Below, one piece after another: positions 5,310 through 59,646 of a DNA stretch of 64,000 bases. Below the pieces are notes generated by a model that ran no database searches, was not told the DNA's origin, and saw nothing but the letters and a program-made list of their open reading frames with translations. This stretch comes from Odiellus spinosus. Taxonomy: Eukaryota > Arthropoda > Arachnida > Opiliones > Phalangiidae. The stretch spans positions 13,592,886 to 13,656,885 of the forward strand of contig OY987236.1 of assembly GCA_963920705.1 (NCBI GenBank). Direction: 5' to 3'. Position 1 is the first letter of the stretch. Each line of letters opens with the position of its first letter. The position numbers and the translations under genes are program-made.

Positions 5310-5455
5310 TCGTCCCAATTGATCGACTTTTAAGTGATCGAAACCAGTTTTTTGGATTAAATGATCGAAATATTTAGGTTAGGTTAGGTTAGGTTAGGTT
5401 AGTTTTTTAACTCAATCGATCATATGAAATTCGATCATTTCGACCCAAATCCCTA
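5310..5455 (+). repeat. GATCGA repeat stretch enclosing TTAGG repeats
   Basis: Contains TTGATCGACTTTTAAGTGAT, AATGATCGAAATATTTAGG and inverted TCGATCATATGAAATTCGAT blocks around the TTAGG run. Confidence 0.7.
5374..5402 (+). repeat. Interstitial (TTAGG)n, about six units
   Basis: Five perfect TTAGG units and a sixth partial one. TTAGG is the ancestral arthropod telomere repeat. The run is short and internal, so it is not a chromosome end. Confidence 0.9.
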
Positions 5456-11749: not shown

Positions 11750-12500
11750 TGATTGAACAGGTTGCAGCCTGGCTCGATTCGGGCCTTGTCAAATTGATCT
11801 CGCGCTAAGTTCGCGAATTTAATTACGAGAAATTGGCTTTCTCAATTAGGAAAAAAATCAATTTTAGTCAAAAATTGTTCAAATTGGAAAACTACCACTG
11901 AATTCGTGAAAATAGACCAAAGAAATTCACACGAATTCAATAAAAGTGAAAATATCTTTGGCCACTTCTGTTGAATTCATGGTATTTAATTTGATCTAAT
12001 TGGTAGAATTCAGATGGAATTTTTCAATTTGGACCCTCATTGGGAAAAGTGATTTATTTCGATATTTTATAGGAGTACATTGAAAATAAAAGTAAAACCA
12101 ACGTCATGCGTATGTAAAAACAGCCTAGCGAATTTTTATCAATTTCTAAAAATTATATGAATTTGCGAGATCAATTTAGCTGCGTTCATACTAGGCCTTG
12201 GAATAGATTTAAACAGTTTCAAAACGTTTCGCTAGAGTCTTGTGAACGGAAAACCGTCTTTTCTCAAATCGATTTGGTTCGATTTCTCGAAACTGCTTCG
12301 GGAACCAGTTTCATACCGATTTGGTTTCAACAACCGATAGATGAAGCTACAATAAATCGATTTTTAACGATAATGCGTGAACACGTGACACTTAAAACGA
12401 TTCCCGACGATTTCAATATCTAATTTTATCGATTTAAGTCGATTATGAAATGCTAGTGTGACCGTAGCTTTATACAAGGCCCAAATCGAGACAGGTTACG
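11750..12500. mobile_element. Family I element, split by a family A insertion
   Basis: Left arm GATTCGGGCCTTGTCAAATT is answered at the right, after removing the family A copy, by an AATTT...ACAAGGCCCAAATCGAGA arm. The interior has a GTAAAACCAACGTCATGCGT block shared with 23500 and 62170. Confidence 0.75.
12178..12469 (+). mobile_element. Family A MITE, inserted in family I right terminus
   Basis: Nearly complete 292-bp copy from AGCTGCGTTCATACTAGG to CTAGTGTGACCGTAGCT. It splits a family I element: GATCAATTT on the left continues as ATACAAGGCCC on the right. Flanking trinucleotides are TTT and TTA. Confidence 0.9.
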
Positions 12501-13960: not shown

Positions 13961-14335
13961 TTGGATTTCTTCAAAGTAGTTTTGCCTTTTATTATTATTC
14001 TCGTATTCGTGAACTACAAATTTTGGAAGGCTGCTGGTTTAGAGATCTTTAACGGGTATATTACCAGAGTAATTTCCCGATTTAAAACTCTAGGTTTAGT
14101 TAATTTGGTCTCTTTCGTGAAAGTACTTAAACGAGAAGTTTTTCCCATTTTCCAACACATTTTAAATCAACAAGCGGAAAAAATTGTAAAGCCTACATTT
14201 AATTTTCGCGCGTTCTGGCACGTGATAAGGAGCTTTCGCGCCGTCTTTTTCCTAAAAGTACTTATTCCAGTTATTCCAAAAGATCCTGCATTTCCTATGA
14301 AAATTACCTTTAATTACGTTCCAGAAATAAACTAC
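13961..14335 (-). repeat. Family J-related repeat upstream of a family A insertion
   Basis: Shares GCGCGTTCTGGCACGTGATA, AAAAGTACTTATTCCAG and CCAGAAATAAACTAC with other J copies. The long plus-strand frame across it (13961-14554) begins at TTG and runs into the family A insertion, so it is not a gene. Confidence 0.65.
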
Positions 14336-14813
14336 AGCCGCGTTCATACTAGGCCTTGGAATCGATTTAAAACGTTTCGTTTCGCTGGAGTCGTGAACAG
14401 GAAAACCGTCTTTTCTCGAATCGATTTGATTCGGTTTCTTGAAATTGCTTCGGGAACCAGTTTCATACCGATTCGGTTTCAACAACCAATAAGCTACGTT
14501 CACACTGCAGACTTTGAAAATGTTTTTAACCGTTTTGGAAAGGTCATATTATAAAATTTTATAGGGTAACCCGTGTAGATCTTTGATCAAGAAACAAAGT
14601 TAATATCTTAAAAAGTCGATTTGAGCATTCAAAACGGTTTGAAAACGGTTCCAAAGTGTCAATTGTGAACGTAGCTCTAGATGAAGCTACAATAAATCGA
14701 TTTATAAAGATAATGCGTGAGCACATTACGCTTAAAACGATTCCTGGCGATTTGAATATCTGTTTGATTTTGCCGTTTCAAGTCAATTAAGAAATGCTAG
14801 TGTAACCGTAGCT
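14336..14813 (+). mobile_element. Family A MITE with nested family B insertion
   Basis: Flanked by TAC on both sides. The empty site exists at 60451-60476 in another family J copy (CCAGAAATAAACTAC followed by GTCATATATCG), which directly proves the 3-bp duplication. A 185-bp family B element (14492-14676) interrupts it after CAACAACCAATA. Confidence 0.95.
14492..14676. mobile_element. Family B MITE nested in family A
   Basis: Termini AGCTACGTTCACACT and a near-perfect complement (ATTGTGAACGTAGCT). Subterminal blocks are ACTTTGAAAATGTTTTTAA and its complement. The TIR resembles that of family A, so the same transposase may have moved both. Half copies occur near 25391-25460 and 33617-33733. 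Confidence 0.85.
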
Positions 14814-19071: not shown

Positions 19072-20183
19072 ATGGGTTCTGTGAAATTTAAGGATGGGTT
19101 CTGTGAAATTTCAGGATGGGTTCTGTGAAATTTCAGGGTGGGTTCTGTGAAATTTCAGGGTGGGTTCTGTGAAATTTCAGGGTGGGTTCTGTGAAATTTC
19201 AGGGTGGGTTCTGTGAAATTTCAGGGTGGGTTCTGTGAAATTTCAGGGTGGGTTCTGTGAAATTTCAGGGTGGGTTCTGTGAAATTTCAGGGTGGGTTCT
19301 GTGAAATTTCAGGGTGGGTTCTGTGAAATTTCAGGGTGGGTTCTGTGAAATTTCAGGGTGGGTTCTGTGAAATTTCAGGGTGGGTTCTGTGAAATTTCAG
19401 GGTGGGTTCTGTGAAATTTCAGGGTGGGTTCTGTGAAATTTCAGGGTGGGTTCTGTGAAATTTCAGGGTGGGTTCTGTGAAATTTCAGGGTGGGTTCTGT
19501 GAAATTTCAGGGTGGGTTCTGTGAAATTTCAGGGTGGGTTCTGTGAAATTTCAGGGTGGGTTCTGTGAAATTTCAGGGTGGGTTCTGTGAAATTTCAGGG
19601 TGGGTTCTGTGAAATTTCAGGGTGGGTTCTGTGAAATTTCAGGGTGGGTTCTGTGAAATTTCAGGGTGGGTTCTGTGAAATTTCAGGGTGGGTTCTGTGA
19701 AATTTCAGGGTGGGTTCTGTGAAATTTCAGGGTGGGTTCTGTGAAATTTCAGGGTGGGTTCTGTGAAATTTCAGGGTGGGTTCTGTGAAATTTCAGGGTG
19801 GGTTCTGTGAAATTTCAGGGTGGGTTCTGTGAAATTTCAGGGTGGGTTCTGTGAAATTTCAGGGTGGGTTCTGTGAAATTTCAGGGTGGGTTCTGTGAAA
19901 TTTCAGGGTGGGTTCTGTGAAATTTCAGGGTGGGTTCTGTGAAATTTCAGGGTGGGTTCTGTGAAATTTCAGGGTGGGTTCTGTGAAATTTCAGGGTGGG
20001 TTCTGTGAAATTTCAGGGTGGGTTCTGTGAAATTTCAGGGTGGGTTCTGTGAAATTTCAGGGTGGGTTCTGTGAAATTTCAGGATGGGTTCTGTGAAATT
20101 TCAGGATGGGTTCTGTGAAATTTCAGGATGGGTTCTGTGAAATTTCAGGATGGGTTCTGTGAAATTTCAGGATGGGTTCTGTG
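19072..20183 (+). repeat. Minisatellite T2, 22-bp unit, about 50 copies
   Basis: The unit is GGTTCTGTGAAATTTCAGGG plus TG. Over 40 consecutive units appear identical. The first two and last five carry GGATG instead of GGGTG, so variants sit at the edges. A family F fragment precedes it and a family K fragment follows. Confidence 0.97.
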
Positions 20184-20959: not shown

Positions 20960-21254
20960 AGCCGCGTTCATACTAGGCCTTGTAATCGATTTAAGCCGTT
21001 TGAAAACGATTCGCTGGAGTCGTGTGAACCGAAAACCTCTTTTCTCGAATCGATTTGATTAGATTTCTCGAAACTACTTCCGGAACCAGTTTCATACCGA
21101 TTCGGTTTCAACAACCGATAGATGAAGTTACAATAAATCGATTTATAAAGATAATGTGTGAACGCGAGACATTTAAAACGATTCTTGGTGATTCGAGTAT
21201 CGGTTTGATTTTGGCGTTTTGAATCGATTAAGAAATGATAGTGTGACCGTAGCA
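20960..21254 (+). mobile_element. Family A MITE, inserted in family D arm
   Basis: Complete copy from AGCCGCGTTCATACTAGG to ATAGTGTGACCGTAGCA. It lies right after a family D left arm ending CCACCAGTAC. Confidence 0.88.
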
Positions 21255-27337: not shown

Positions 27338-29055
27338 TTAATAACATACCTACTTTTACACGAGTGGGTTCCAATGTAACGCCTGAATATTCGAGGAAGG
27401 AATCTATTTACTCAGTTTGCGACAGTATAGGAACTTAAAAAGAATTCAATCCGCGCACTTCAGCACCAAAACAATGTTTTTTTTTCCCCTAAACATAAAT
27501 TTTATGCATAAAATCCCGTACTCCTTCGCGATCGACCGGTTTATGCCCCCTGATTTATTTATAGGTAAACAAAAATTGTACGAAAAAAGGTTATTGTACG
27601 CGTTGACAAATCAAGGTGGATTACTATTACTTTTTTTCCATATATCAAAGATAGAGAATGATTCGAGAGTTTATGTCTACGCGCTGAAAACTGGAACCGA
27701 TTCTGACTTAGTCTCCTCTTTGGTTAAGATGCTTGGTTCGAGTTTCCGTCATCAAAAATGCACCAGTGCCGCGATTCGCGAAAATATCGAAGGAATCTGG
27801 AGATCATCTTTCCGCACCCGCCCTCTCCTACACCCCTAATTCGATTTTCCCCAACTTTTAAGAAACGTAGGCTAGTTCAATTCAAAGTGATGCTGACACA
27901 AATTTTTTTAAGGTTACTATATATGGGTTAATTTTTAGCTTTTCATACTATTTAAATTAACCCCATAATCAAACTTTTACACCTTTTGAGTTGACACGCT
28001 TTTAAGAAACTTCAAAATTAAAATAACAAATATATAAAATTATAATGTTAGGTTTATTAACTATGGTGATTTAAGTATCAATTTTAATTAATGAGACTGA
28101 TATTCTTCATGGTTTAACCTCAAAAACTTAAGTTTAATTGGGAAGCCTTTAAATTAAAGCACACACGCACTCGTTTCAACACGTGTAACAAATCATGAAG
28201 TTTATCCGATTCATTATTAAAATTATTTTTCATAAAATTTACCGTAGTTTTGACGCAAGAGCTAAAAAAAAAACTAAATTGAAAAGCGCCTTTAACTCGT
28301 ATTCCAATATTTTGTCCGTCTTTTCATTTTAATTTCGAATCGGAAGATAAATAGTCAAACTCTCACGTTCCTAACTCGCGATTCTCATTCCGAATAACAA
28401 AACCGAAAAAATAGTTTCGGAAGAGAGCGACAGGTATAAATGTTTTGGCGCGTAAATATGGCGGGAGTTTTATTTTCGCTCTTACGCTGAGAATTTGAAA
28501 CGCTTAATACACAGAAGAATAATTGTCAACAAATGGTTTGTAATAGAAAACCTCCTTTCATAGAGAAAAATGATTTTTTGAAATAACTCTTTGTTGCGTT
28601 GTACCGTACTATATAGTTTAAAATGGCTTTACGAGAACTAAATATCTTTTTGAATCGCCATTTACGTCATCTAATCGATGATATATGAAGCAATCTTCAA
28701 AAAACATTTTTCGGTCGTAACAAACCAACGTCTATCGGCCCTTCTCAATTATTGATCTTAGCTTTTTCAATTTTGAGGAAGAAAAACATTATAGCCCCTT
28801 TTGTCCCTCTTGATATAGCGAGTCCTTTGAGATAAAATCGTTCTACCAAAAATACAGGGTGGAAACATCGGTTCAGTCTTCATGCTTGTATAGACTCTGT
28901 ATTTAGACGCGCCTTAGCTGAAATTCTTAAAGGGAGAATGCAAGTTTTGTGTATTTAATAAGCGAGTTTCCATATTACGCCACTAGATCGTATATAATCA
29001 AAATACCACAAAATCTCCGTCTTTAACTAGGTTTATTTCCTTTAATTACGTCTAG
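27338..29055. other. Unassigned DNA with an unexplained 140-codon frame
   Basis: A plus-strand frame at 27417-27839 stays open for 140 codons (first ATG at 27474, MFFFPLN...) without matching any repeat family seen here. No domain was recognised. A lone family D left terminus occurs near 28930. Confidence 0.35.
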
Positions 29056-29351
29056 AGCCGCGTTCATACTAGGCCTTGGAATCAATTTAAACCGTTTCAA
29101 AACGTTTCTCTGGAATCGTGTTAACGGGAAACCGTCTTTTCTCGAATCGATTTGATTCGATTTCTCGAAACTGCTTCGGGTACCAGTTTCTTACCGATTC
29201 GGTTTCAACAACCGTTAAATGAAGCTACGATAAATTGATTTATAAAGATAATCCGTGAACGCGTGAAGCTTAAAATGATTCCCGGCGATTTGAATATCGG
29301 TTTGATTTGACCGTTTCAAACCAATTAAGAAATGCTAGTGTGACTGTAGCT
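29056..29351 (+). mobile_element. Family A MITE with TAG duplication
   Basis: 296-bp copy, one of the best preserved, from AGCCGCGTTCATACTAGG to CTAGTGTGACTGTAGCT. Flanked by TAG on both sides. Confidence 0.92.
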
Positions 29352-37280: not shown

Positions 37281-37905
37281 TAAAGTGAGACTCTCACCAT
37301 TATTTCTCCAATTGCTATGAATTTTTTTATACCTTTGTGTTGATGCGTTCTTCAGAAACTTCAAAAATATATAGGTATTTTTTTTACCATACATGACGTA
37401 GTTTATTTCTGAAACGTAATTAACTTAAATTTTCGTACTTAGTGGATTAAGTACTTTTACGAAAAAGGCCGCGCGAAACTGACCTTATCACTCGTGACAA
37501 AACGCGCGAGAATCAACTGTAGGCTCTACAATATTTTAACGATCTTTCCGAAAATTTTACTCTAGAGATACGGTCACACTAGCATTTCTTAATCGATTTG
37601 AAACGTTAAAATCGAACCGATATTCAAATCGCCAGGAATCGTTTTAAGCGTAATGTACTCACGCATTATCTTTATAAATCGATTTATCGTAGTTTCATCT
37701 ATCGGTTGATGAAACCGAATCGGTACGAAACTGGTTCCGTAGCAATTACGAGAATTCGAATCAAATCGATTCGAGAAAAGACTTTCCCGTTCACACGACT
37801 CTATCAAAACTTTTTGAAACGGTTTAAATCGATTCCAAGGTCTACTATAAACGCAGCTATATTCCATTTGTAGTTCATGAAATATTCGAAACAGTCTCAC
37901 TTTAT
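37281..37905. mobile_element. Family J element with AAGTGAGA termini, TA-flanked
   Basis: TAAAGTGAGACTCTCACC opens and CAGTCTCACTTTA closes the element. TA at both ends is compatible with a Tc1/mariner-type duplication. The family core (ACGTAATTAACTTAA, AGTACTTTTACGAAAAAGGC, ATCAACTGTAGGCTCTACAA) is present. A family A element is inserted within. Confidence 0.75.
37566..37858 (-). mobile_element. Family A MITE inside family J
   Basis: Starts AGATACGGTCACACTAGC and ends ATAAACGCAGCT. It sits within a family J element (37281-37905). Flanking trinucleotides TAG and ATA do not match cleanly. Confidence 0.88.
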
Positions 37906-38440
37906 TAAAAAAAAATCTCTCGTGACACGTACTAGGATACGCTCTTTAAGAGAGTTTTCGAAAAAGAGACTCCGTTTCAGTCCTTATGTGAACTTCTTCC
38001 ATTGAAGATTGCCTCGTAGCATTTATTATAAAGAATAAAGAAAAATATATCTTCCTAAAAAGGGTATTTAATCATAGAAACCTCGTTAACCCGGGATTAC
38101 CCAACTGCTACGTGCGGAAATATTTTGGTTTCGTGATATGAAACTACTTGGATGAAAAGTAATTCTTCGGATGTTATACTACGTTATATCATTCCTACGT
38201 TAGCCTCGGCTTATATTAGTTCAAAACCAAAAAAGGATTTTGTAGCTATTATTTTTTTGGTTAAGTCAAAATCCTGGTAATGAATGGAGCTGCTAGAGAA
38301 GTCCTTTTTAGTCATTTAGGCAGAGGCTAGACTTTCTTTGACTTGTTAATCTTTCTCGAGGGCTTGGGGTTAGTAAACTTTTTGAAGGAAAAGTCCAAGC
38401 TGAAATATGGTTGACAAGTTTTCGCTGGTCAGAAGTAATA

Positions 38441-44740: not shown

Positions 44741-45116
44741 CTTGGAGGAATTATGTGATATGGAGTTGCCGACTGTTCGTTTTTCTATTGAAACGATGGT
44801 TAGGATTGCCGGGCCTAGAGCGCCGTGTTTTCCCCTTTTTGTGACCACTTAGCTCCGGCGCTCGCGCGCTTCTACCTTCGCGCCGTACGTAAGCTGCTGC
44901 CTTCTTCCCAAAAAACCCCGTCCGTAGACCGTCGTAGTAACCGCCGTTTAGTTTGAAATTTGGTAGAAAGCATTTCCCGAGCCACGCGAGTCGTGACGCC
45001 CCCCTTAAATATGCGTGTTACCTTGGTAACGGTATGCGCGTCGTAGTAGGAGAGGCCGCTACGAGTAACGAAGTTTATAGGCAGTCGGCAACTCCATATC
45101 ACATACTTCCTCCAAG
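44741..45116. mobile_element. Foldback element Q just downstream of the IR gene
   Basis: Inverted arms of about 34 bp: CTTGGAGGAA, one mismatch, then TATGTGATATGGAGTTGCC and GACTG. A perfect 7-bp duplication GCTGTAT flanks it (44734-44740 and 45117-45123). The interior is G/C-rich. Frames at 44872-45141 are chance readings. Confidence 0.92.
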
Positions 45117-45219: not shown

Positions 45220-45439
45220 TCACAGTATTTGCGTAAAAATAATCTCCAACAGAAAGATAACGCACGACATGAGAATTCCGTAAGCCCAAATGTAAAATAT
45301 GTTTGACAACTCTTCGATGGTCATCTTTTTAACGTTGTTAACGTTAGTATCTCTCTTCTCCAAAAAATAAATATTGAGGTGGTAATCCATTTGTTGCTCA
45401 TAAGGCGTCAGTTGACTGGTTTCCACAAATCTTAGCGTC
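45220..45439 (-). CDS. IR exon 6: M4 helix and C terminus
   Basis: Reads FVETSQLTPYEQQM, then a basic and acidic linker, then IEELSNIFYIWAYGILMSC and a final hydrophobic run to EIIFTQIL and the stop. A membrane helix ending in an F..E-type motif close to the C terminus is typical of the IR family M4. Two acceptors nine bases apart (before 45439 or 45430) are both in phase. The upstream TTTCTAG|GA resembles the exon 5 acceptor and is preferred; the difference is three residues. A foldback transposon ends 104 bp downstream of the stop. No clear AATAAA signal lies between them. Confidence 0.8.
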
Positions 45440-48256
45440 CTAGAAATCGGGATTCATAAATTTCGTACAGATTTGGCTATTCAACGTTACAAACTTGGGA
45501 AGCACCGAAAATTATCATGGAACAACTGGTTTTTCTACCCAAGTTTAGGACTAATACGTCCGAAACCTCTCCTAGAATAGTTTATGTATTAGCCCTGAAA
45601 TAGCGGTCTTGTTAATTAATTTACTATTTTTTTAATTTTGCGTATGTTCTTCCAAGTATTTCTTTCTTTTATACTTGAATCTCAAGTCGGGAAACCTTGG
45701 CCGAGTCCAAAGGACTGATCACTCCACTTAATCGGTGTATACAACCCTCTAGTTTTGACTTTTCTAAAGTAATTGCACGCGTAACTAATGACGTATTTGG
45801 CGTGTCTAACTCATTGGCCGAGTCTCGATCTATTGAAGTAATTAACGTTTAATTGTACTTACAAGTAATCAATGTTCTCCTTGATTCGTCGTGGTATTTT
45901 CTTCGAGAACGGAAGAGAAGCGTGGCTAGTGAGGTAAACCTCTTGACCCATGTACAATTTCTTCGAGGCTTTCTTTAGGAGTTTACCCATATTCTGTATT
46001 ATGTCAATTTTTAAATTAAACGCAGTTTCCACCGTGACGTATTTGATTGTGCCGTTAGGAAATGAGCCGAAGAAATCTTCTTCTTCAAAGTACATGTCTA
46101 CAGACTTTGATTCTTTCACGAATCTATACTCGTCCGAGTTACGATCACCGAACTGCAAATATATAAAACTTAATTGTATTTTATTCATTATTTCAAACGC
46201 CAAGATGTCCATTCTTAAAAGTCCTAGAGCAAGAGACCAATTGTGTCTTTGTTGCGTAAAAGAACTAAAAATTCGAATATCAGTTATCGAACTCTTCCAT
46301 TTTCTCGAAAATAGCTAGCCGGCCAGCCAGCCAAGCACGATCAGTAAAATACTTTTCAGAAATCAAAAGTTTTACGAAAAATAAAAATTTTCTTGAACGT
46401 GAAATAACGCACCCTTTTAATCACGCTTCTGAAATTATGTAGGGAATTTATTACGGCCTTGGTACCGGGGCTTAATTTCCAGACATCTTGAATAGAGTTG
46501 AGATGAACTGATTTAGAAACTGAAAGAACGCTCTTCAAATTTCCCGAATACGCTTTAGTCAAGACAGACATGCCCAGTAACCAGCCGGCCAACATAATTT
46601 TACCAATAGGTCTTTGCAAAACATTTGGTTCTGTACGAAATTAAAGTTAATAAAATGGAAACTTGGAGCTAAAAATGGAGCAGTTTTTGAATTTATTTTC
46701 GGAATCACCGTGGCAAAAAAAGTATTCGAGAATTTTCAAACAATTTTTAGACATTTAATTGGTGTTTAAATTAATTTCTATAGTTTGGTAAATTTTTATG
46801 AAAGTAAATATAAATTCGGAACAATCATATTATTTCAGCCTTCAGTAGTGCTTTCTGATTATTTTATCTTTATTCATAACTTAAAATTTTTCTAGGAATG
46901 TCCATGATAAATCCAATGTAATCGCGAATAATTTTCCGATTATTTTTTTATGATTAACTGATAGTTGTGGATTATTTTGTCCAAACCCCGATCTCTATTA
47001 ACATTAAAATAATAGGCCGACGTTTGACGCCTAAGACCTTGGGTATCAAACGCCGGCCAATGTTAGCACATTACAAGCACTGTGGAAGGCTGAAATCATA
47101 CGACTGGTTCGAATTTATACTTACTTTTATAGAAATTAATTCATTTAAACAACGAAAACGTGTCTAAAAATACGTTTTTTGGCATGATGATTCCGAAAAT
47201 AAATTCAAAAGCTGTTCCATTTTTTAGTATTAGTGCCCGGTGGGGTTTGCAATTCGATACTTAACGGTTCTGCAAGAGAGATGAGACGTAAAACCAGACA
47301 TATTCGTAACACAAACGGAGGCCACCATGGCGCCGCCCGTTGGTGACACGAAGGAGAAAAACTGAGACGATAGACAAAACCAATATCGAAATCATGGTGG
47401 TAATCCAAACTATCTCTTCGAATCCCGATGATGAAAATCTTTTGACACCTTGCTGAAAATCGGGGTTCACTGCTGAAACTATTCTGTTTTCACCGCTCAG
47501 AAATGAGGGACTGAAATGCATGTGAAAAATGAAACGCGGAGACGCCGCGGTGTTTTGAATCAAACAGTCAACAGCCTGTCAAAATGTATATTGGGAAAAT
47601 AACAATGTTATACAGATTGAACATTTTCTTTTGGCGCGAACATGTAGCTATGGAAACCGAAGCTTTTATTAGAGTTTAAGCCCGAGATTTCCATCTCTAT
47701 ATCAAAGAAATTAAACTGAAATAAGGAGGATAAGTCAGGGGTTATTTAAAAATCAGGTTTTGCCACTAGAAACGATAACATATGCCACTAAAACGTCAAT
47801 TTATTCTAGTTCCTGTAAACAGGAAATGTGGATTTGAATGCCTACGTGTTTGTATACTTAATTTTCAACTTAGCGCCATTTGGAAATCACCATTTGTTTC
47901 GCAAGAAGTAGATTACTGCAGTGACGTTTTCAGTGACGAAATTAAGTTAACGTTCTTACACTTCATCCTGATTTTTAATTACCTTGGGTAATTAACTGCA
48001 TGCGAGACTGCGTGTGACGAACAATATATGGGAGATAAGGGTGTAACTTAGTTTTCGTGTGACTAAGTTTATTATCAAAATTTTAATAATACGTATAGAT
48101 AATTTCATTAATTATAAATTTCTTGTATAGTTGGAACTTAAAATTTAACTTACTCCGGTCCATAACGTTGTCCAAGAGTCGGCTTTTCCAAGCTTCCTTT
48201 TTGGGAAAAATTTTCCCGCAGTTTTCAAGGCAGTAGACAAGGGAACGAAGTGCAGA
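45220..48256 (-). CDS. Divergent ionotropic receptor (iGluR/IR family), 3' six exons, 5' end not found
   Basis: IR-family proteins are ligand-gated cation channels of the ionotropic glutamate receptor fold, placed in sensory-neuron membranes for smell, taste, humidity or temperature. The model joins 48256-48154, 47715-47614, 47575-47266, 46630-46376, 46223-45863 and 45439-45220 (stop included). All junctions are GT-AG and phase-consistent and give 449 residues. Visible are M1 (about 123-143, starting IVWITTM), the pore segment ending SSLLQNQ (166-172), M3 with AYSGNLKSVLSV (198-209, equivalent to the family SYTANLAAFLTV signature), a second ligand-binding lobe (about 210-415), and M4 (421-443) near the C terminus, as is usual for IRs. 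The first ligand-binding lobe is only partly covered and no start codon or signal peptide was located. Exons 1 and 2 are tentative; exons 3-6 are strong. Transposons occupy intron 3 and both flanks. It could be a recent pseudogene, but no internal stop breaks the joined frame. Family membership is secure; ligand and subfamily are unknown. Confidence 0.85.
45863..46223 (-). CDS. IR exon 5: ligand-binding lobe S2
   Basis: The exon is 361 nt with an open frame throughout. It starts after TTGCTCTAG and ends at a near-consensus donor GTAAGT. It encodes an acidic and aromatic middle section (YFEEEDFFGSFPNG) followed by SHASLPFSKKIPRRIKENID. That last block matches the S2 tail of IRs, where a short hydrophobic stretch and a Pf..kI motif precede the helix leading to M4. 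The canonical glutamate-contacting acidic residue cannot be assigned without an alignment, in line with the ligand divergence of IRs. Confidence 0.78.
46376..46630 (-). CDS. IR exon 4: M3 gate helix and start of lobe S2
   Basis: This is the most diagnostic exon. After the acceptor TTTCGTACAG it reads PNVLQRPIGKIMLAGWLLG and continues through M3 to AYSGNLKSVLSV. The R and the AYSGNL/VLSV pattern align with the R...W...SYTANLAAFLTV block of the iGluR channel domain. The following SVHLNSIQDVWKLSPGTKA corresponds to the linker into lobe S2, where the family has a pI.s..dL motif. The chosen donor is C|GTAAAA. Earlier GTs (for example GTGCGT after IKR) would not keep phase with exon 5. Confidence 0.83.
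46650..47222. mobile_element. Family M foldback forming most of IR intron 3
   Basis: Arms TTGAATTTATTTTCGGAATC and GATTCCGAAAATAAATTCAA lie 20-45 bp inside the splice sites of the 635-bp intron. A truncated family C hAT copy interrupts the middle. The intron is therefore almost entirely transposon-derived. Confidence 0.8.
46852..46997 (-). mobile_element. Family C hAT-like MITE, copy 5, truncated, inside IR intron 3
   Basis: Only the part from TTTCTGATTATTTT to CCCCGATCTCTA remains; the other terminus is missing. It lies within a family M repeat that fills intron 3 of the ionotropic receptor gene. Confidence 0.85.
47266..47575 (-). CDS. IR exon 3: end of lobe S1, M1 and pore helix
   Basis: This exon has 103 codons plus one base. 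It opens after a CAG acceptor preceded by a T-rich tract and reads AVDCLIQNTAASPRF at its start. A polar stretch with FSSSGFEEIVW leads into M1, matching the usual position of the first IR membrane helix after a Pf..vW-like motif. After an R/G-rich loop it reads YEYVWFYVSSLLQN, where the pore loop is expected. The donor is GTTAAG, a permitted but non-optimal site. The split codon CAA (Gln) completes the LLQNQ motif with the next exon. A stop lies two codons past the donor, so the splice is required. Confidence 0.82.
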
Positions 48257-48440
48257 CTAAAATATTTTATTACGTGATAATATGGAACCCCATTCACTAA
48301 TTATTTAACGAAACTCGTCAAATTCCGATTCGAAGATAAAAACAAAATTATATGAGTATAAAAAACTACATTCTTAAACTACGTTCTTAATGTTTTAAGA
48401 ACGTATAATTAACGTCACTTTTCTGTGTTAAGACTTTCAC

Positions 48441-49014
48441 CAGAAGCCGATGAAACCCTCCTTTGAAGTATATTACTCCCGGGTCTTGTCTACCGCTCTC
48501 GGTATGGATTAGTCTCAAAAATCGCGATTCGTACGCCTCCTAAAGCTGGGTTTTCAAAGGAGCGGGTAGCGGGCAAAAATCCAGCGGGTGCGAGAAAATG
48601 AAAGCGGAGCGAGAATATCTAATCGAGTTAGATCGGGAGCGGGTAGCGATTTTTTACCCTCTTTCCCGCGATTTACACTCTCTCGCGCAAAAACTCGCTT
48701 TAATGAAAACGGTCTTTTGCTTAGCGGGAGCGAGAACTTTCCGTTTTTTCTCGCACCCGCTGGATTTTTGCCCGCTACCCGCTCCTTTGAAAACCCAGCT
48801 CGGAGCGGGAGTTCGTCTAGCGAATATCTCTAGCAACCTTGGAGTTCGTCAACCAAACGTCGTCGTATGTGGAGAGAGAATTTCCAATTTTCCGTAGACA
48901 GGGGGGTATGAAGTAGGACCCCTCCGATCTCGTAAAATTTTGAATTTTACCATACAGAGGAGCGCTATGTGGAACATTAGAGTAGACTTCAAAGGAGGGT
49001 TTCATCGGCTTCTG
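48441..49014. mobile_element. Foldback element G, copy 2, with nested element H
   Basis: Same CAGAAGCCGATGAAA termini and a perfect 7-bp duplication CTTTCAC on both sides. It is longer than copy 1 because a 257-bp palindromic element H replaces an internal segment. It lies 185 bp upstream of the most 5' exon I can place for the IR gene and may separate it from its missing 5' part. Confidence 0.93.
48544..48800. mobile_element. Palindromic element H nested in foldback G
   Basis: Two perfect inverted arms of about 55 bp (48544-48598 and 48746-48800) starting AGCTGGGTTTTCAAAGGAGC surround a central region. The arms contain GCGGGTAGCGGGC, far more G/C-rich than the surroundings. Identical arms indicate recent insertion or conversion. 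Overlapping open frames on both strands are by-products. Confidence 0.88.
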
Positions 49015-49418
49015 CTTTCACGAAAGGAACGATATATTACACGATATAATGAACCAGAATCAACTAGGAACCATATAGATCGATGACGTAAAATGTTTGA
49101 TTTATGTTTTAAAACATTTGGAAGATTCCAATTATTATTATTATTATTATTTTTTTTTTACTGTTCCGATAATATTTTATGCAGTTGATATGGATATATA
49201 TTTTAAATTATTATAGTTACGCAAAAACTTGTTTTTCCTCCCTATAGCTATCGTGATAGGTGGGACCTACTCGAAAAATACCCTTCCGCCCATTCACAGG
49301 ATCTTTACTAGATTTTGTCCATCCCTACTTAGATTCTCTTTTTAGAACTCAGCGAGCCAACTATTTTTTTTTTAATTAAAATAGGCCGCTGTTTTAAATG
49401 AGTACTCTGACTACGGAA

Positions 49419-49925
49419 TAGAGCTCGGAATTCGTATAATTTTTATTAATTGGATAAATTCCACTAAATTCTGATGTATATTATCTGGTAGACTATTTTT
49501 CATTCGAGTTAACTTATTCGATCCGTATCCGTTTTTATCCAAAATAGGCCTTATCTTAAAATATTATCCGCGTAATACGTTCGGATAAAAAAATTCCAAA
49601 TTTATTTTCGTGAAAAATGATGAATAAATATATGATTTTAAATTCTTAATTCGTCGTTTTATTTATATTCTTCAAATGAAAAGTTAATTTGAAATATTTT
49701 TCTTATATTTTAGACTAATTCTAGAAACGTGAATTTTCTTATCCATCGTTATACGTTTGAAAACGAGTAATTTGTTCGTTGATAAAGAGCCAAACGCTTA
49801 TCTTCGGATAAACCTTATACATTTAACAATTATACGAATATTCAAATTTCCTTATTTAGTTACAAACAATTTATCTGAAAATACACGAATAACAGAAGAT
49901 AATGGATATCCGATTCCGAGCTCTA
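49419..49925. mobile_element. Family K hAT-like non-autonomous element, complete copy
   Basis: Termini TAGAGCTCGGAAT and a perfect 13-bp complement enclose 507 bp of AT-rich DNA. Flanks CTACGGAA and CTTCGGAA form a 7/8 target duplication. The termini and 8-bp duplication again point to hAT, but the interior is unrelated to family C. It lies upstream of the IR gene fragment. Confidence 0.88.
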
Positions 49926-50039
49926 CTTCGGAAAAAAAAAATTCGTAACGGGAAAATCACTGAACTTGCAAAAACTTAGTCCGCAATTTTAATTAATAAC
50001 TTTTAACTATCGTGGTCCGATCGTGGTTCCTGTACTACT

Positions 50040-50165
50040 CGGAAAACGGAATTTGGGAATTTTCCCTAACATATATGGTCAGGGAAGAGTCAGGGAATTT
50101 AAAAATTGGCTCAAAAGGTTAGGGAAAAGTCAGGGAATTTGAAAATGAGCCCAAATGATGACAGA
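50040..50165 (+). repeat. Family F-related fragment
   Basis: Three GTCAGGGAAnAGTCAGGGAA units with no terminus visible. Confidence 0.6.
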
Positions 50166-50802
50166 AAATAAATATATTGGTACGTTTCAAGGAGCTGTTT
50201 ATGATTGGTTGACCAATCAATTGTAAGATAATTAGTTTAAACTGAAGCTATTTACCTAAAGATCCATTTTTTTCTGATATTCTGAGTAAACTATTAACTT
50301 GATAAAGTCTGTCAAATAAAATGTGGAAAGTTCCAAGAGCTCGCTTTTAACAATAAATTCGTGAGAAATTACTTAAAAAGGGTCAAGAAAATTAACTTCC
50401 AAATTTTGTACGAACCCTGGACGGACCATCATATTTAACATTATTTCGGGAATGATTCTCAATTGATTCTTAGGGCATGAGAAATACATCAAAAATATAC
50501 TCAAATCTATATGGACTGTAGTCTAGTAGACTTATGATATAGTTAATTTATCCTCATTAAGAAAAACTCTTACGTGACGTTGACTAAATTGAGCAAAATA
50601 TATTGGCTAAATGTTTCATGAAAATCTTGAGGATTAATCTTCCCAGCCAAGAAATCGCGTAGAGATTTTGAACCTTCTTTCATTTTTAAATCCTAGTTCA
50701 AAATACACGAAGACCATTAAACGCGTGTGAAAAACATTAAGATTTCATATAACATTTACAATTTTTTAATACTGATGTTTAATTTCTCTTATCGTATATA
50801 AA

Positions 50803-58251: not shown

Positions 58252-59646
58252 CAGATTTCGTAGTGATTCTCCCCGGATTTCGTAGTGATTCTCCCCGGAT
58301 TTCGTAGTGATTCTCCCCGGATTTCGTAGTGATTCTCCCCGGATTTCGTAGTGATTCTCCCCGGATTTCGTAGTGATTCTCCCCAGATTTCGTAGTGATT
58401 CTCCCCGGATTTCGTAGTGATTCTCCCCGGATTTCGTAGTGATTCTCCCCGGATTTCGTAGTGATTCTCCCCGGATTTCGTAGTGATTCTCCCCGGATTT
58501 CGTAGTGATTCTCCCCGGATTTCGTAGTGATTCTCCCCGGATTTCGTAGTGATTCTCCCCGAATTTCGTAGTGATTCTCCCCGAATTTCGTAGTGATTCT
58601 CCCCGGATTTCGTAGTGATTCTCCCCGAATTTCGTAGTGATTCTCCCCGAATTTCGTAGTGATTCTCCCCGAATTTCGTAGTGATTCTCCCCGGATTTCG
58701 TAGTGATTCTCCCCGGATTTCGTAGTGATTCTTCCCCGGATTTCGTAGTGATTCTTCCCCGGATTTCGTAGTGATTCTTCCCCGGATTTCGTAGTGATTC
58801 TTCCCCGGATTTCGTAGTGATTCTTCCCCGGATTTCGTAGTGATTCTTCCCCGGATTTCGTAGTGATTCTTCCCCGGATTTCGTAGTGATTCTTCCCCGG
58901 ATTTCGTAGTGATTCTTCCCCGGATTTCGTAGTGATTCTTCCCCGGATTTCGTAGTGATTCTTCCCCGGATTTCGTAGTGATTCTCCCCGGATTTCGTAG
59001 TGATTCTCCCCGGATTTCGTAGTGATTCTCCCCGGATTTCGTAGTGATTCTCCCCGGATTTCGTAGTGATTCTCCCCGGATTTCGTAGTGATTCTTCCCC
59101 GGATTTCGTAGTGATTCTTCCCCGGATTTCGTAGTGATTCTTCCCCGGATTTCGTAGTGATTCTTCCCCGGATTTCGTAGTGATTCTTCCCCGGATTTCG
59201 TAGTGATTCTTCCCCGGATTTCGTAGTGATTCTTCCCCGGATTTCGTAGTGATTCTTCCCCGGATTTCGTAGTGATTCTTCCCCGGATTTCGTAGTGATT
59301 CTTCCCCGGATTTCGTAGTGATTCTTCCCCGGATTTCGTAGTGATTCTTCCCCGGATTTCGTAGTGATTCTTCCCCGGATTTCGTAGTGATTCTTCCCCG
59401 GATTTCGTAGTGATTCTTCCCCGGATTTCGTAGTGATTCTCCCCGGATTTCGTAGTGATTCTCCCGGATTTCGTAGTGATTCTCCCGGATTTCGTAGTGA
59501 TTCTCCCGGATTTCGTAGTGATTCTCCCCGGATTTCGTAGTGATTCTCCCCGGATTTCGTAGTGATTCTCCCCGGATTTCGTAGTGATTCTCCCCGGATT
59601 TCGTAGTGATTCTTCCCGGATTTCGTAGTGATTCTCCCCGGATTTC
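58252..59646. repeat. Minisatellite T4, 22/23-bp unit, about 62 copies
   Basis: The unit is GGATTTCGTAGTGATTCTCC plus CC. Blocks of 23-bp units (an extra T before the C run) alternate with 22-bp blocks, and three 21-bp units occur near 59461-59520. On the minus strand no stop occurs in any frame of the unit, producing frames of 495 and 480 codons. These read ESLRNPGRITTKSGENHYEI repeatedly and are almost certainly non-coding by-products. Confidence 0.96.

Follow-up and report, generated by a model that had tools for sequence, protein, structure and literature searches.

A predicted divergent ionotropic receptor gene in Odiellus spinosus and its multi-exon relatives

Exons and channel signature of the locus

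The subject of this report is a 64,000-nucleotide stretch of the genome of Odiellus spinosus (contig OY987236.1, positions 13,592,886 to 13,656,885; hereafter the window), in which a chain of small exons had been predicted, from the letters of the sequence, to encode a divergent ionotropic receptor (IR). When the minus strand was read in three frames and the exons were joined, a six-exon model was obtained at window 45220-50692, amounting to 1260 nt and 419 residues, in which all joins are GT-AG introns with agreeing phases and the sole stop is the terminal TGA at 45220. Its features, with a slash marking splice boundaries, are given here in the direction of the gene.

50692-50574, minus strand: exon Z, outside the coordinates of the original prediction (45220-48256); probably part of S1
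48256-48154, minus strand: exon 1, probably S1; (T)LHFVPLSTALKTAGKFFPKRKLGKADSWTTLWTG; TTTTAG/T ... GGA/GTAAGT
47715-47614, minus strand: doubtful exon, 102 nt, in frame and keeping phase; FNFFDIEMEISGLNSNKSFGFHSYMFAPKENVQS (FNFFDIEM...NVQS)
47575-47266, minus strand: M1/pore exon, with the end of S1, M1 and the pore loop; AVDCLIQNT...YVWFYVSSLLQN
46630-46413, minus strand: M3 exon; ..GWLLGMSVLTKAYSGNLKSVLSVSK..VIKR
46412-46153, minus strand: phase-0 intron of 260 bp between the M3 and S2 exons, read base by base
46152-45863, minus strand: S2 exon; FGDRNSDEY..FPNGTIKYV..IPRRIKENIDY
45439-45220, minus strand: last exon, with the end of S2, M4 (NIFYIWAYGILMSCVIFLLEIIF) and the stop codon TGA

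The five exons from 48256 down are joined through GT-AG introns in phases 0, 1, 0 and 2, and the channel elements are ordered correctly along them, namely M1, pore, M3 (KAYSGNLKSVLSV) and M4. The 3' end of exon Z reads ..SQYILLNLVNV-AC/GTAAGAG, in phase 2; its acceptor, CTAG, was our choice, and its 5' boundary is uncertain. Another frame of exon 1 (frame 1, SALRSLVYCLENC..) produced a weak VHS match (E 0.023; 15 bits, the cut-off being 29.8) and was dropped because its phase is incompatible with the next exon. The original prediction had placed six exons within 45220-48256, in phase across GT-AG introns and with the channel elements in the order above. The phasing and the order stood, as did five of the exons; the sixth is doubtful, and exon Z had been missed. 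Its statement that no open frame exceeds 120 codons holds when frames are counted from ATG (longest 117) and fails when they are counted from stop to stop (151, at 45859-46314).

Membership of the ionotropic glutamate receptor (iGluR) superfamily, which had been proposed from the channel signature, was borne out by profile searches and by the large family that shares its architecture within this genome (443 Mb in 286 contigs; relatives are designated below by L-numbers for loci and C-numbers for contigs). The joined protein of the exons from 47715 down matched Pfam PF00060 (Lig_chan) with 44.7 bits against a cut-off of 30.8 (E 1.6e-11), over profile positions 4-146 of 146, and the score without the doubtful exon was 44.4 bits; the M3 exon alone gave E 0.0017, below the cut-off. 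A single-sequence phmmer search of the PDB found GluD2 at 0.0013, and a profile of nine joined rows found AMPA receptors (best E 2.2e-9, GluA2), through M1-pore-M3 and weakly through M4. Lig_chan was matched by 9/9 rows of the family alignment, a count that, like the PDB profile, rests on nine rows with several flaws: row 9 (L033) is a chimera, its Z, M1 and M3 exons coming from one gene and its S2 and M4 segments from a neighbouring copy, and its S2 segment spans two frames; the first ~14 residues of row 8 (L029) run through a stop and are probably not exonic; and one junction residue is altered in row 3, which, like rows 4 and 5, also lacks some parts. Ahead of the Lig_chan match lie ~125 residues, and between M3 and M4 there is a stretch of fitting size, both common to the relatives; the PDB alignments end at the start of S2, except for M4, and no other Pfam domain was listed.

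Profiles built from relatives, with the window excluded, found each of the channel exons: the M1/pore exon at E 1.4e-24 (21 seeds), the M3 and S2 exons at E 1.6e-20 and E 2.1e-18 (an M3+S2 profile of 14 seeds), and the M4 exon at E 1.5e-20 (13 seeds), the next best window frame standing at E 0.39. It might be supposed that chance alone lined up the open frames of the six-exon model, since the individual frames are short and the joins were picked by eye. Yet the same profiles reached no better than E 0.08 on controls (5 block-shuffled copies and 1 reversed copy of the window), the join as a whole matches Lig_chan, and its junctions resemble those of the relatives, so that we consider a chance chain next to impossible. 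On the evidence of the sequence, we take the predicted gene at 45220-50692 on the minus strand to be real.

Relatives, shared junctions and surrounding repeats

A protein search of the genome found at least 113 places at E <= 0.1, 4 of them the window, and this is a lower bound because 108 of 803 candidates were scored. The codon pattern KAY[ST]G..LK, which describes the M3 motif, occurs at 62 exact sites including that of the window, some of which, on small contigs, may be assembly duplicates; the reversed control had 1. With Lig_chan as the query, 150 of 314 candidates were scored and at least 77 places lay at E <= 0.001; the 77 listed do not include the window gene. The window gene is 33-43% identical to the other genes of a 22-gene tree, and two relatives on C15 are near-identical to each other. 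In the tree and the alignment alike, each relative is represented by its core exon segments strung together, and the residues at the joins are approximate.

The two upstream exons of the model were compared with their equivalents in these relatives. A profile from 11 relatives found exon Z at E 1.4e-8, the next best frame in the window being at 0.05. After an exon ending ..NLSNV, the donor A[C/A]/GTAAGA was found in 7/9 relatives checked (L041, L042, L043, L037, L032, L035 and L039); in the other two, L030 and L045, the donor motif search landed at another place. Equivalents of exon 1 have an acceptor AG one base ahead of the first full codon in 9/9 relatives and a phase-0 GT donor in 10/10, and the junctions of the window's exon Z, exon 1 and M1 exon are the same as those of the relatives. 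Taken together, these junctions and the profile value of exon Z support both exon Z and exon 1. Two sister IR genes, L042 (5908-6256) and L043 (2296-2850, both in gene-strand coordinates), have minisatellites with an 8-residue translated unit (~24 bp) immediately ahead of exon Z.

A six-exon chain inside 45220-48256 requires an additional exon, and the segment at 47715-47614 was probably exon 2 of the original prediction, an identification of ours, as no exon coordinates came with it. Being symmetric (0-0), this segment can be included or skipped. In 10/10 relatives examined the M1 exon can be joined directly to the preceding exon in phase 0, with a GT donor and an AG acceptor, and in four of the 10 (L041, L029, L039 and L031) the gap before the M1 exon is 59, 62, 69 or 84 bp, too short for an exon of 102 nt; the exon is therefore doubtful. 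The gaps of the other six, 299-1968 bp, could hold an exon. A likeness between 47715-47614 and the L029 sequence before its M1 exon was rejected, as the L029 stretch precedes the AG of that exon. A tblastn query of exon 1 plus the doubtful exon had no match in the loci of 17 relatives, and because it failed to match even exon 1, the case against the doubtful exon rests on the junctions.

Several points weigh against the gene as modelled. The same failure of exon 1 to match in those loci is one, and by sequence alone exon 1 is not significant (profile E 3.5), its profile scoring better at window 52612-52502 (E 0.12), upstream of exon Z. The first exon or exons, the start codon, the signal peptide and the initial part of S1 were not found for the window gene. 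The highest identity to any relative is 43%, over 155 columns, and the relatives that seeded the exon profiles had been recruited by similarity to the window's protein.

A gene with such a 5' end might be a recently dead IR copy, in which the 3' two thirds are still open, the promoter, start or first S1 exon is gone, and no receptor is made. We think this improbable, if worth keeping in mind, given six exons totalling 1260 nt that are free of internal stops and have splice sites like those of the family. Differences from C17 relatives are commonest at third codon positions in 4/4 comparisons (e.g., 32, 24 and 48 of 82 codons), a bias that also speaks against a pseudogene. The same is true of the position of the inverted-repeat elements around the gene, two of them resembling miniature inverted-repeat transposable elements (MITEs), which all lie outside exons.

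46671-47224: MITE-like inverted-repeat element with nested inverted arms, wholly within the intron between the M1/pore and M3 exons
48441-49014: MITE-like inverted-repeat element within the intron preceding exon 1; nested inside it, at 48544-48800, is a perfect inverted repeat of 55 bp
44741-45116: 376-bp element shortly after the stop codon, whose inverted termini are 35 bp long (97%)

Pieces similar to the first of these occur elsewhere in the window and in other loci of the genome, and translated frames of the second recur in other loci; the third had no second copy among the fetched loci. Among the relatives themselves, the S2 exons of L036 and L033 (C17) are seemingly frame-broken, and some copies in that group may therefore be pseudogenes.

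The rest of the window is marked by repeats. Two arrays of different 22-bp units, with 98-99% matches, lie at 58254-59646 (62 copies) and 19073-20183 (50 copies), and the minus-strand open frames (482-495 aa) in the former arise from the repeat itself and are probably not genes. A dispersed repeat of up to ~270 bp is found at 12173-12445, 20960-21231, 29053-29328, 37589-37945, 14325-14491 and other places, with some ten further matches of >=113 bp (74-92% identity, both strands), and it accounts for the peptides common to open frames at 14.0 and 37.7 kb. There is a short interstitial run of (TTAGG)n, the arthropod telomere unit, at 5374-5402. Pfam searches of 6 other window frames gave nothing above cut-off (best DUF4843, E 0.077), an Rfam search of the window had 0 matches at the gathering threshold, and a tRNA scan of the window with a bacterial model called none.

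The type of receptor

The channel match places the predicted protein in the iGluR superfamily, and the divergent IRs of arthropods are, in the parts of Croset et al. 2010 (PMC2924276) drawn on here, a species-specific subfamily of that superfamily. The many-copy pattern and the divergence of the window family fit divergent IRs as set out there. We consider it very likely that the window carries a divergent IR gene, coding for a subunit of a ligand-gated cation channel with a split bilobed binding domain (S1 ... M1-pore-M3 ... S2 ... M4), and that this gene is a member of a large multi-exon family in the genome. That it would be an IR rather than a synaptic glutamate receptor is what we infer from the divergence of the sequences and the size of the family.

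A divergent synaptic or non-chemosensory iGluR subunit is the alternative, and the closest solved structures, GluD2 in the single-sequence search (0.0013) and GluA2 in the profile search (2.2e-9), are of that kind; moreover, the searches used could not tell IRs from iGluRs. Against a conventional subunit stand the strong divergence and a many-copy family that includes near-identical members, e.g., the two C15 genes, as well as an M3 motif of KAYSGNLKS where GluA2 has SYTANLAAF. The matches listed at E <= 1 for the 9 rows include no glutamate-binding, ANF or other further Pfam family, a weak argument as the models begin inside S1. We regard this alternative as unlikely, slightly more so than a dead gene copy. 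IRs are recognised by a binding domain that lacks one or more of the R, T and D/E residues that contact glutamate. Most of the S2 of the window family does not align to GluA2 in the PDB profile, and a reading by eye found no GST-like motif after M3.

Going by known IRs, the receptor would probably be a tuning subunit that assembles with a co-receptor (IR25a, for instance) into a hetero-tetramer on chemosensory neurons. A ligand would close the S1/S2 clamshell, the M3 gate would open and the neuron would depolarise. The expression of the window gene, its co-receptor partner, its chemosensory role and an intact 5' end are all presumed in this scheme; what the sequence itself shows is how the gene is built, its channel signature, its family and its codon pattern.

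The M3/S2 intron and the place of the family among arthropod receptors

The intron between the M3 and S2 exons divides the family. It was considered as a possible peculiarity of the window, an idea that was rejected since L036 (on C17) and L035 (on C15) carry it at the identical place. M3 and S2 share one open frame in the relatives read from C1, C2, C3, C5, C8, C10, C11, C18 and C280. In the 22-gene tree, four C17 genes cluster with that of the window (support 90/77); two C17 rows of the tree fill less than half of the columns. A branch with support 97/95 separates the eight intron rows, together with the C3 row, from the rest. The junction was read base by base in 3/8 of the intron rows (those of the window and of one gene each from L036 and L035), the other 5/8 being deduced from where the frames end. 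Intron presence takes two changes to map on this tree, which is unrooted, so that gain and loss of the intron are not separated.

A search of the genome, exon by exon, for the insect odorant receptor family 7tm_6 gave one match. A mitochondrial locus (L048) has the order trnM-nad2-trnW-(trnC)(trnY)-cox1-cox2-trnK-trnD-atp8-atp6, in which the cox1 frame and cox2 are 3 bases apart; cox1 alone was identified by Pfam, the other gene names (nad2, cox2, atp8 and atp6) are what we take them to be, and a trnV called inside cox1 was taken as false. In insects and crustaceans, trnL usually lies between cox1 and cox2, and this gene order, with the single 7tm_6 match, points to a chelicerate or myriapod. 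C17, the contig of the nearest IR relatives, also carries several fragments resembling cox1 (e.g., 3125637-3136983 and 4376162-4393978), which may be mitochondrial DNA copied into the nucleus.

A tentative history, which we hold as a possibility with the odds against it, is that there has been a large IR radiation in a non-pancrustacean arthropod that has almost no odorant-receptor-type genes, and that the gene belongs to the side of this radiation that bears introns. The expansion would have kept at least four introns, pointing to the duplication of genomic DNA, not retroposition; the one phase-0 M3/S2 intron would have been lost in the most-expanded branch, and the branch of the window would be a low-copy remnant.

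Published IR families, as described in the portions of the papers cited here, offer likenesses and differences; literature searches found no paper that could be linked with this genome. With the divergent IRs of PMC2924276 the window family shares channel architecture, strong sequence divergence, large size and, presumably, species-specific clades. Those of Drosophila, however, are single-exon in the vast majority (PMC2924276), whereas the window gene has five introns and L041, from exon Z to M4, has four. The expansion of the dipluran Campodea augens comprises 2,424 genes, mostly intronless with a few gained introns (PMC6938034), and the cockroach Blattella germanica has at least 897 IR genes, with a massive clade that is largely intronless and has a few gained introns (PMC6175461). 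The window family is like both in being large and recent, with many copies and, seemingly, pseudogenes, and differs from their massive clades in that the window relatives read carry their conserved blocks on separate exons. Multi-exon divergent IRs are not in themselves new, because eight introns are the general rule in another set of B. germanica IRs (PMC6175461). The centipede Strigamia maritima, with 51 IRs in one clade (PMC4244043), likewise presents a single lineage-specific expansion in a non-insect arthropod, and is set beside the window family by description.

Because very large IR families (PMC6938034, PMC6175461) and the centipede clade (PMC4244043) are already in print, the window gene is a fresh addition to a described receptor type: one gene with corrected exons is added to a large chemoreceptor family, an annotation that is useful and unsurprising. 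Genes of such a type can be missed by an exon-by-exon search with the general family model (Lig_chan). It would be mildly new if the main expansion has stayed multi-exon, as in the 17 loci of this genome that were read. If the multi-exon state holds across the family, then a single genome could serve to put duplication and intron loss in order, in contrast to the largely intronless expansions of Drosophila, the dipluran and the cockroach.
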